A stretch of DNA of 64,000 nt from positions 1 to 64,000 of the forward strand of contig JABUFA010000005.1 in the NCBI GenBank assembly GCA_013314755.1, read 5' to 3'. Below are positions 29,928-32,458 of this stretch, in pieces. The notes under the pieces are model-generated. The model was not told the DNA's origin, ran no database searches, and saw nothing but the letters and a program-made list of their open reading frames with translations. Source of the DNA: Chthonomonadia bacterium. GTDB lineage: Bacteria > Armatimonadota > HRBIN16. The position numbers and the translations under genes were made by a program. How positions within the stretch are numbered: position 1 is the first letter of the stretch; every line of letters begins with the position of its first letter.

Positions 29928-30036
29928 CCCGCACGGTAAAAATCGGCTCGTTCCTGCCGATAATACCAGTGTAGCCTCTTTGAGGGACGCCGGATGCGTC
30001 CCCAGAAACTCAGGATAACCAGAGGGAACGACAGGG

Positions 30037-31353
30037 ATGTCCAGGCGATACGACGACAACGAGATACAGCAGCTCGTCATTGAGTACCACCGCACCGGAG
30101 ACCTGCAAATCCGCGAGCGTATCGTGGAGCAGTTTCCCAATCTGGTGGAAAGCATTGCCCGCCGTTTCACCAATACGGGTGAGCCGATAGAGGACCTGAT
30201 TCAAGAGGGATACCTCGGTTTACTCAACGCTATCGACCTGTATAACCCCGACAAGGGCACCAAGTTTTCCACCTATGCAACGCATTTTATCATTGGACAA
30301 ATCAAACATTACCTGCGCGACAGGGGCAAGATTATCAAAGTGCCTGCATGGATTCAGGAGCTCCAGCAGAAGCTGACGCGCGTGGTCGACTCGCTCACCC
30401 AGCAGCTGGGCAGACAGCCCACTCCTGCCGAAATCGGCGCGGTAATGAATATGGAGGAGAAGCAGGTGGAGTACCTGCTGTCCACCAGCGACCTGTTCCG
30501 GGTAACCTCTCTGGACGCCGCCGATGACGAGGATGACGATACCTTCCCGGGCGCAGACATGGAAAAACTGGAGCATCCCGATAGCATCACCATGCAGATT
30601 GCCACCGAGGAGCGGGTGGTGCTGGAGCACGCGATGGAGCGGTTGAAGGAGATCGAGCGTCAGGTGCTATACGCCTTCTTTTATGAGGAGCTTTCTCAGA
30701 CAGAAATCGCTCAGCGACTCGGTATTTCGTGTAATTACGTCTCACATATTCTGCGGAACTCCACCAAGAAACTGCGCAAAATCCTGATGACCGAAGAGCT
30801 GAAAGATGCACAGGCACAGATGATGCGTATGCAACAGCGGGTGGGCGCGATGCAAGCCGAACTGCTCCAGCCCTCTATCGTTGACCCGATTACCGGCTGT
30901 TATAACCACCGCTATTTCCAGAGCCGACTGGATGAGGAGATTAACCGTGCCAGTCGCTATGGTTACACGCTGGGGCTGGTCATTATCCGGGTGGGCGGTG
31001 CGCAGATGTTCATCCGCCAGAACGGGCTGAGCCTGTTTGAAGGCGTGATGGCGCGGCTGGCTCCCCGTATTCGCGCCAAAATCCGCAAGGCAGATATCCC
31101 CGCCCGCATTGACGTGCACGACCTGGCAGTGATACTGCCCTACACGGGCGAGCAGGCGGAGGTGGTGCGCCAGCGGTTGAGCGAAGAGGCTCTGCAGATG
31201 CTGAAGGAAGAGAACCTACTGGCTTCAGGCTTGTGGGTTGAGAGCGCCTGTAACTATACCGAAGGCTGGGTGAACCTCTCGGAATTCGTACATCAAACGC
31301 AATGTAGCCTGCGAGCATTTTGGGGAAGAGTGGAACAGGATATGGCTGCCTGA
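30037..31353 (+). CDS. Sigma-70 factor fused to a degenerate GGDEF-like domain
   Basis: Residues 1-250 form a complete SigB/SigF/WhiG-like sigma factor: region 2 (about 15-105; DLIQEGYLGLLNAIDLY, FSTYATHFIIGQIKHYLRD), region 3 (about 106-160), and region 4 (about 193-250; LSQTEIAQRLGISCNYVSHI). A predicted coiled linker (251-280) leads to residues 283-430, which open like a GGDEF domain (DPITGCYNHRYFQSRLDEEI). The GGDEF signature position holds RIDVHD (357-362) before LAVILP, and the metal aspartate strand reads LGLVIIRVGG, so diguanylate synthesis is unlikely. It may sense a ligand or partner. A terminator follows directly. Confidence 0.9.
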   Translation: MSRRYDDNEIQQLVIEYHRTGDLQIRERIVEQFPNLVESIARRFTNTGEPIEDLIQEGYLGLLNAIDLYNPDKGTKFSTYATHFIIGQIKHYLRDRGKIIKVPAWIQELQQKLTRVVDSLTQQLGRQPTPAEIGAVMNMEEKQVEYLLSTSDLFRVTSLDAADDEDDDTFPGADMEKLEHPDSITMQIATEERVVLEHAMERLKEIERQVLYAFFYEELSQTEIAQRLGISCNYVSHILRNSTKKLRKILMTEELKDAQAQMMRMQQRVGAMQAELLQPSIVDPITGCYNHRYFQSRLDEEINRASRYGYTLGLVIIRVGGAQMFIRQNGLSLFEGVMARLAPRIRAKIRKADIPARIDVHDLAVILPYTGEQAEVVRQRLSEEALQMLKEENLLASGLWVESACNYTEGWVNLSEFVHQTQCSLRAFWGRVEQDMAA

Positions 31354-31404: not shown

Positions 31405-31525
31405 CCTGTTAATCCTACCGTTTTTCTGCAGAATCCCGTAAGAATACAGATACTCTATCACCTCTTTTGGCTCATGGCTTGCTGTCTAACGGTAATGGAT
31501 AGCAACACGGAAGGAGTGAGTGTCT

Positions 31526-32458
31526 GTGAGCCACCGTTTGATGCTTTTATTCATTGTGTTTTCTGTTCTGATTTGCAGTATGCCTGGCTGGAGCGCCAGA
31601 ATGCCTCGCGGCTCTTTTCTGATTCAGCCTGCTGCCAGCGTGTGGCAGTTAAGCAAGCAGGTAGAGAGCACGCCTGTAGTCGCCGCTCGCTATGAGAGAC
31701 ATTTCGGAGTGCCCGCCGCGCAATTTGTGCGCTACGTGCGAAGCCATTTAGCCTTGCGCCGGCTGAACAGTGCAGGCAGTTACAGAGTGTTCCATATAAA
31801 AAAGGATGGAACCATCGGCAGCCAGATACGCAGGCTGAGAAAAGGCACGCCCGTCTTTATGCATCTGCGCACAGGACAGCCGGTACTACTGGCGGAGTGC
31901 GGCAACCCGATGAGTACTTCTCTGCCCGGGTGCGCGGCGCCCTCGGTGCAGAACCCACCTCTGCCTACAGCAGATGCTACTGAGCCTGTGCTTCCGCCGC
32001 AAGTAGAGGAACCGCCATTGCCACTACCTGTTGCTACCTTAGAGCCGAACCTCTTCGACGACCCTGCGCTCGCGCCGATGCAGATGGATGACCTGCCACC
32101 CTGGGATGCGGATATTGTGCTGAGCATACCTGACCTGCCCTCCTCTCACACCGGTGCGCTTGCCTACGCTTCTCCTGCTGCGCTGGCGCCGCTGTTCACG
32201 ATGGGCGCAGGCGTCATCCTTTCGCTGGGCGGAGGCTCCTCAGGTGGGCGAGGGGGAGGTGACCTGCCGGCTGTGCCCGAAGCCACCTCCCTGCTCCTCT
32301 GGACGGCGGCTGTTCCGCTGGTTGCTATCCATCGGTGGCGACGAAGCAGGCGGCGTCAGGACGGACAGGGCGCTTCAACAGATGCCTTTGCGGTGGTCGC
32401 CTCGCGCTCGATAGGTGCACCTACCAGGTTGCCCCACTCGGTCCAGCTGCCGTCGTAG
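31526..32458 (+). CDS. Secreted protein with PEP-CTERM-like helix near the C-terminus
   Basis: About 310 residues. I chose GTG 31526, nine bases after AAGGAG; GTG 31520 is closer. A signal peptide ([17 protein letters not shown]) leads to a small domain (about 50-125; [46 protein letters not shown]) that I think recurs in Armatimonadota. A Pro-rich linker and Gly-rich segment follow, then [19 protein letters not shown] and an Arg cluster resembling PEP-CTERM. Unusually, about 35 residues continue past the cluster, antisense to the rhodanese gene, overlapping it by 103 bases. Confidence 0.7.

Follow-up and report, generated by a model that had tools for sequence, protein, structure and literature searches.

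A sigma factor fused to a degenerate GGDEF domain in Armatimonadota: a predicted c-di-GMP receptor with a candidate degron

What does a GGDEF-like domain do at the end of a sigma factor? The question is raised by a gene of a Chthonomonadia bacterium (Armatimonadota; HRBIN16) that lies within the stretch of DNA analysed here, a window of 64,000 nucleotides from contig JABUFA010000005.1 of assembly GCA_013314755.1. The second messenger c-di-GMP acts on transcription via activators, repressors and riboswitches, and in Streptomyces via a separate anti-sigma factor. In this gene, sigma factor and degenerate GGDEF domain are encoded by a single open reading frame at 30037-31353 on the plus strand, which starts with ATG, has no internal stop and specifies 438 amino acids; the extent of the whole gene is supported by the reading frame, by Pfam, by orthologues and by dN/dS. 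The most likely reading of the sequence evidence is that its product would be a one-protein, c-di-GMP-gated and unstable sigma factor controlling surface pili.

Domains and descent of the fusion

All four Pfam domains called on the protein exceed the curated cut-offs (coordinates are on the plus strand throughout). Sigma-70 region 2 (residues 30-98, 30124-30330; PF04542, 3.9e-19), region 3 (residues 109-168, 30361-30540; PF04539, 4e-13) and region 4 (residues 199-248, 30631-30780; PF04545, 2.7e-12) place the protein in the sigma-70 family, and the recognition helix of region 4, GISCNYVSH, is strongly conserved in the alignment. The degenerate GGDEF domain occupies residues 281-428 (30877-31320; PF00990, 4.1e-14), with the Pfam match itself covering residues 281-390 at 53.1 bits (cut-off 23.8). 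An AlphaFold2 model of the C-terminal part, built on 25 relatives, has a pLDDT of 89.6 and a pTM of 0.82, and every one of its top PDB matches is a GGDEF domain (WspR, GcbC, SadC and PleD; best E 9e-11), so that the predicted fold is that of a GGDEF domain and not an unrelated one. A first-pass annotation, made from the DNA letters alone, had described a complete sigma factor with regions 2, 3 and 4 followed by a GGDEF-like C-terminal domain, and both parts of that description are borne out.

The 2 halves are joined by an unbroken helix in the AlphaFold2 secondary structure (residues 232-277, 30730-30867), which connects region 4 with the GGDEF-like domain. The full-length two-domain model has a low pTM of 0.41 and thus does not fix the placement of the sigma half against the GGDEF half. 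Linker length differs among the fusions, being mostly 34-35, 39 or 44-45 residues and also 51-52; a fixed heptad spacing or coiled-coil register was rejected because these lengths give no clean register.

Among subfamily models, the sigma half scores best against SigB/SigF/SigG (TIGR02980, 197.1 bits) but stays below that model's cut-off of 234.35; against FliA/WhiG (TIGR02479) it reaches 126 bits, below a cut-off of 189.6, and its second-best NCBIfam match is PRK07408, SigF. It is an alternative group 3 sigma factor that is SigB/SigF-like, placed as such rather than as a formal member of the subfamily. Elsewhere the same genome encodes a true FliA/WhiG sigma (262 bits; L197:1430-2233, G000:C50). 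The earlier label "SigB/WhiG-type" is therefore kept in its first part, as SigB- or SigF-like by score, whereas WhiG-type identity was rejected on 126 against 197 bits and on the separate true FliA/WhiG sigma. The sigma factor not being WhiG-type, and the adjacent genes encoding a LytR_cpsA_psr protein and a protein without a Pfam match, the gene and its immediate neighbours do not make up an RsiG-sigma-WhiG system.

A search with the C-terminal 187 residues found matches of 81-100% identity in 7 of the 10 genomes of the genus, in each case within an ORF that also encodes the sigma factor. Of the other genomes, two (G007 and G004) have a contig that breaks off at the upstream LCP gene or within it, and the third (G002) has only a 41% paralogue of that gene; these absences look like assembly gaps in which the neighbourhood is missing. 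A profile built from 25 fusions matched 206 of the 291 genomes of the phylum at E<=1e-60 and 185 at E<=1e-90. In a wider search of 397 genomes, the roughly 106 from outside the phylum (397 minus 291) gave no match at 1e-90, and the matching genomes listed all belong to the same phylum. Plasmid records gave 48 matches, none covering more than 80% of the query, and the best matches listed are to the sigma part only. The one-ORF architecture first noticed in the window is thus real and widespread, being found in about 185 of 291 genomes, and is no accident of assembly.

For the alignment, and for the counts of I-sites and C-termini given below, 109 distinct fusions were collected. In a FastTree tree each of 27 families forms one clade, the fewest changes possible, and the distances between sigma halves correlate with those between GGDEF halves (r = 0.72), so the fusion appears to have been inherited vertically, and it probably originated early in the phylum. 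Mean pairwise identity is 0.31 for the GGDEF halves and 0.51 for the sigma halves. Within the genus, dN/dS is about 0.05 for the sigma half and about 0.06 for the C-terminal half, with dS saturated.

Active site, I-site and C-terminus

When the C-terminal domain is aligned to PleD, whose reference sequence was confirmed against PDB 1w25, DVHDL (31111-31125) stands in place of GGEEF, the window protein having R357-I-D-V-H-D where PleD reads R-Y-G-G-E-E-F. The metal aspartate D327 of PleD is replaced by R318, and PleD N335 by I326. The alignment thereby upholds the first-pass reading of a GGDEF signature replaced by RIDVHD and a lost metal aspartate, and the decay extends to the other fusions aligned: GG[DE]EF is intact in 0 of the 109 fusions, which carry 92 different pentapeptides at that position, and D327 and N335 are kept together in only 3 of 109. 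With the motif absent and the metal and guanine residues lost, an active diguanylate cyclase was rejected; binding of GTP, which had been suggested earlier, is disfavoured by the loss of the GTP/metal site.

The complete I-site, a point absent from the first-pass annotation as was the C-terminal Ala-Ala, has been retained. R350-K-A-D353 (31084-31095) corresponds to R359xxD362 of PleD, the primary c-di-GMP I-site motif, and its arginine and aspartate are each found in 109/109 fusions. R304 (30946-30948), equivalent to PleD R313, the I-site arginine from the partner protomer, is likewise kept in 109/109, and R380 (31174-31176), the equivalent of PleD R390 and the fourth I-site residue, in 107/109. 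RxxD is frequent among GGDEF domains, and its conservation by itself is no proof of binding. The genome's 10 other GGDEF proteins served as a control: 8 have a recovered motif line and only 3 of these 8 carry RxxD, so the invariance of RxxD in the fusions is not a family background. The genome also encodes intact GG[DE]EF proteins and 3 PilZ proteins, so the cell is equipped to make and read c-di-GMP. The 4 PleD residues are those that constitute the I-site, with R313 supplied by the adjacent molecule (PMC7288161), and PopA and PelD have been classed as receptors on the grounds of lost catalysis and a retained I-site (PMC10333796). The fused domain has the same features by sequence, namely a GGDEF fold, a complete I-site (RxxD, R390 and R313') and no active site; an I-site kept while the active site decayed marks it as a predicted c-di-GMP receptor and not an enzyme.

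At its very end the protein carries 2 alanines (31345-31350), a candidate ClpXP degron. Ala-Ala terminates 86 of the 109 fusions, compared with 6 of 456 other ORFs from the same loci, and in 56 of 75 genera at least half of the fusions have it; this enrichment above background is as expected of the ClpXP C-degron class of the ssrA/sigma-AntA type. Positions -3 to -12 have no conservation comparable to that of Ala-Ala, which argues that the 2 alanines are selected by themselves. Position -3 is mostly K, R or Q, versus Leu in ssrA, and the trait requires at least 8 changes on the tree. A ClpX gene and a tmRNA with the tag ATPQYALAA are present in the same genome. Sigma-AntA, an orphan sigma factor with a C-terminal Ala-Ala, is a ClpXP substrate both in vitro and in vivo (PMC7142297), and by analogy the Ala-Ala of the fusion protein is likely an ssrA-type ClpXP degron. 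Fusions of some families (f22, f15, f23 and f43; L114, L119, L115, L171 and L130) keep the I-site but no longer have, or never acquired, the Ala-Ala. They amount to a natural experiment in which the receptor stands apart from the degron.

Promoter, leader and gene neighbourhood

At about 100 bp before the start codon is a promoter-like site, TAAA-N15-GCCGATAA (29937-29963, plus strand), that is conserved in the genus and occurs only once within the window; we take it to be the sigma-28 (FliA) consensus. GCCGATAA is kept, about 75 bp before the start codon, in 7/7 genus members with the locus, and the TAAA upstream of it has a spacing of 15 in five species and 16 in a sixth, and is TGAA in the seventh. 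Three f22 genomes have a related promoter-like site close to where the pilC ORF begins. Prediction of a regulon from TAAA-N15-GCCGATA was rejected, since the exact pattern has 4 matches genome-wide and its reversed control has 3. Among hexamers, CCGATA, the -10 part of the site, shows the strongest enrichment in front of the sigma operons (15/71 versus 8/228 regions; p 1.2e-5, uncorrected for the many hexamers compared). The true FliA/WhiG sigma in the genome (L197) could read CCGATA and is a candidate reader of the promoter, so that these sites do not establish autoregulation and may instead reflect a cascade.

The 5' leader of the sigma gene also contains an inverted repeat, GGGACGC-CGGAT-GCGTCCC (29984-30002), whose arms are complementary in 7/7 genus members, with one compensatory change from A-T to G-C in the alignment. 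No second exact copy occurs in the genome; the RNA fold z is -1.57, and Rfam gave no match near the sigma-GGDEF gene or its repeat. The repeat might serve as an operator or form a hairpin in the mRNA.

Across the phylum, pilC is the gene immediately 5' of the fusion, in the same orientation, at 61 of 88 informative loci (15 of 22 families), and pilB and pilT often come before it. The one pilB examined in a pilC-sigma operon (L086) encodes an MshEN c-di-GMP domain. The gene does not adjoin pilC in f7, f24, f33, f13, f23 and f30, nor in the window's own genus, where it has moved beside the LCP gene (LytR_cpsA_psr); the window genome has a pilM-N-O-Q-B-T-C cluster elsewhere, most of these names being read from position and length. 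In cyanobacteria, SigF controls pilA (PMC2758279, PMC6495340). Together with the pilC synteny and the SigF-like sigma half, this suggests that the regulon likely comprises type IV pilus or surface genes rather than flagella. The first-pass annotation had named the chemotaxis, flagellar, LCP and polysaccharide genes of the window as natural targets; this is not supported, the position of pilC in 15 of 22 families pointing elsewhere.

Several other features of these loci are worth recording. Two separate pilus or secretion clusters with pilC-like genes are present in the window's genome (L201 and L202; G000:C50 and C66), and in the former an HDOD-like ORF seemingly lies between pilB and pilT, the names having been assigned by eye. 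In family f35, a gene divergent from the pilC-sigma pair (L164:4665-5735) encodes a GGDEF protein whose C-terminus looks canonical, a candidate source of c-di-GMP. Within the window, the sigma gene is followed by an ORF for a 312-aa protein without a Pfam match (31520-32458), relatives of which occur after the fusion in another member of the genus and near the fusion in one f38 genome.

Gating of the sigma factor and rival explanations

These features are probably best explained by a c-di-GMP-gated sigma factor in which the dead GGDEF domain acts as the receptor. In the mechanism we propose, c-di-GMP would bind as an intercalated dimer between the I-sites of two protomers, with R304 (PleD R313) coming from the neighbouring protomer, so that the ligand would cross-link two sigma molecules via their C-terminal domains. 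An effect on region 4 is expected because the linker helix continues from it, and cross-linking would alter how region 4 engages RNA polymerase and the -35 element. High c-di-GMP might hold the sigma factor as an inactive dimer, the domain acting as a built-in anti-sigma factor; this direction is a guess that we slightly prefer to activation. The Ala-Ala would keep the protein short-lived via ClpXP, such that output tracks current synthesis and ligand level, and the targets would be type IV pilus and surface genes.

Promoter choice had been suggested at the outset to be under ligand or protein control. The invariant I-site and decayed active site now make direct ligand control much more likely, and partner docking is kept as a rival. 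Under such docking the GGDEF-like domain would bind an anti-sigma factor, a diguanylate cyclase or phosphodiesterase, or a pilus motor protein, with the arginines serving the interface instead of c-di-GMP. RmdB of Streptomyces offers a precedent, in that its inactive GGDEF domain binds sigma-WhiG with displacement of RsiG (PMC13232838), and pilC adjoins the gene in most families. Direct contact of a GGDEF domain with a sigma factor, as seen for RmdB, also fits the main reading. We nevertheless consider docking unlikely, as a partner interface does not predict that the conserved set should be exactly the 4 I-site residues, the RxxD pair among them, in a domain that is otherwise mostly variable (an identity of 0.31 for GGDEF halves versus 0.51 for sigma halves). 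More serious, though still the weaker reading, is the possibility that the C-terminal domain is mainly a degron carrier and that c-di-GMP gates proteolysis rather than RNA polymerase binding, in effect PopA and CtrA in one protein. PopA, a degenerate GGDEF protein that binds c-di-GMP at its I-site, directs ClpXP to CtrA (PMC12564702), and the enriched Ala-Ala behind unconserved positions fits this role; against it, the families that keep the I-site without Ala-Ala point to a receptor role apart from the degron. Gated proteolysis overlaps with the main explanation, so that the confidences attached to the two do not sum to one.

That the tail is a decaying, functionless relic on a working sigma factor is very improbable. 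Both the GGDEF motif and the metal site have indeed disappeared, but the tail is under purifying selection (the dN/dS of about 0.06, with dS saturated), the I-site is invariant and the fusion persists in some 185 genomes of many families. Least credible by far, to the point of being negligible, is an assembly or frameshift artefact, given that the identical one-ORF fusion recurs in independent assemblies, including single-contig genomes, and that the genus genomes without a match are accounted for by two contigs ending at the LCP gene and a third genome without a close LCP match.

A c-di-GMP-gated sigma factor of this kind would combine known parts. The loss of the active site, the RxxD I-site and the c-di-GMP ligand (the last predicted for the fusion) are shared with PopA of Caulobacter and PelD of Pseudomonas, in which the degenerate domain is attached to receiver or to membrane and GAF domains, whereas the output domain here is a sigma factor. 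With RsiG-sigma-WhiG of Streptomyces the fusion would share the action of c-di-GMP at a group 3 sigma factor; that system, however, consists of 2 proteins, with an unrelated c-di-GMP fold and a WhiG sigma, in contrast to a single SigB/SigF-like protein with a GGDEF I-site. RmdB, which has a degenerate GGDEF domain and an EAL domain, resembles the fusion in having a GGDEF domain that contacts a sigma factor, but it acts in trans as an active phosphodiesterase and anti-sigma antagonist and, unlike the window protein, is not fused. Sigma-AntA, a proven ClpXP substrate from Streptomyces, likewise ends in a conserved Ala-Ala and lacks an adjacent anti-sigma factor, but is an ECF sigma without a ligand-binding domain. 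The SigF proteins of Synechocystis and Nostoc are also SigB-class group 3 sigma factors linked to type IV pili, with no fused sensor described there. Covalent C-terminal extensions are known from the ECF sigma factors ECF41 (SnoaL-like) and ECF42 (TPR); these share a covalent regulatory domain with the fusion and differ from it in sigma group and in the domains involved, with no second messenger known for them. Each building block is thus known, and we found no description of the sigma-GGDEF combination in the literature searched, largely open-access journal papers, in keeping with the first-pass remark that no such sigma factor was known to have been described.

Tentatively, the fusions could make up a class of ligand-gated sigma-70 factors that spans the phylum, its members being dimerised and switched by c-di-GMP at the I-site and cleared by ClpXP via Ala-Ala, and through them c-di-GMP would set pilus expression. 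If so, the roles of anti-sigma factor, second-messenger receptor and degradation signal would be united in one chain, and a sigma factor carrying its own receptor would be the shortest known route from c-di-GMP to promoter choice. The phylum has almost no genetics, and the named I-site and degron residues make the hypothesis testable with few point mutants. The fusion may also show how a domain evolves from enzyme to receptor within a transcription factor.
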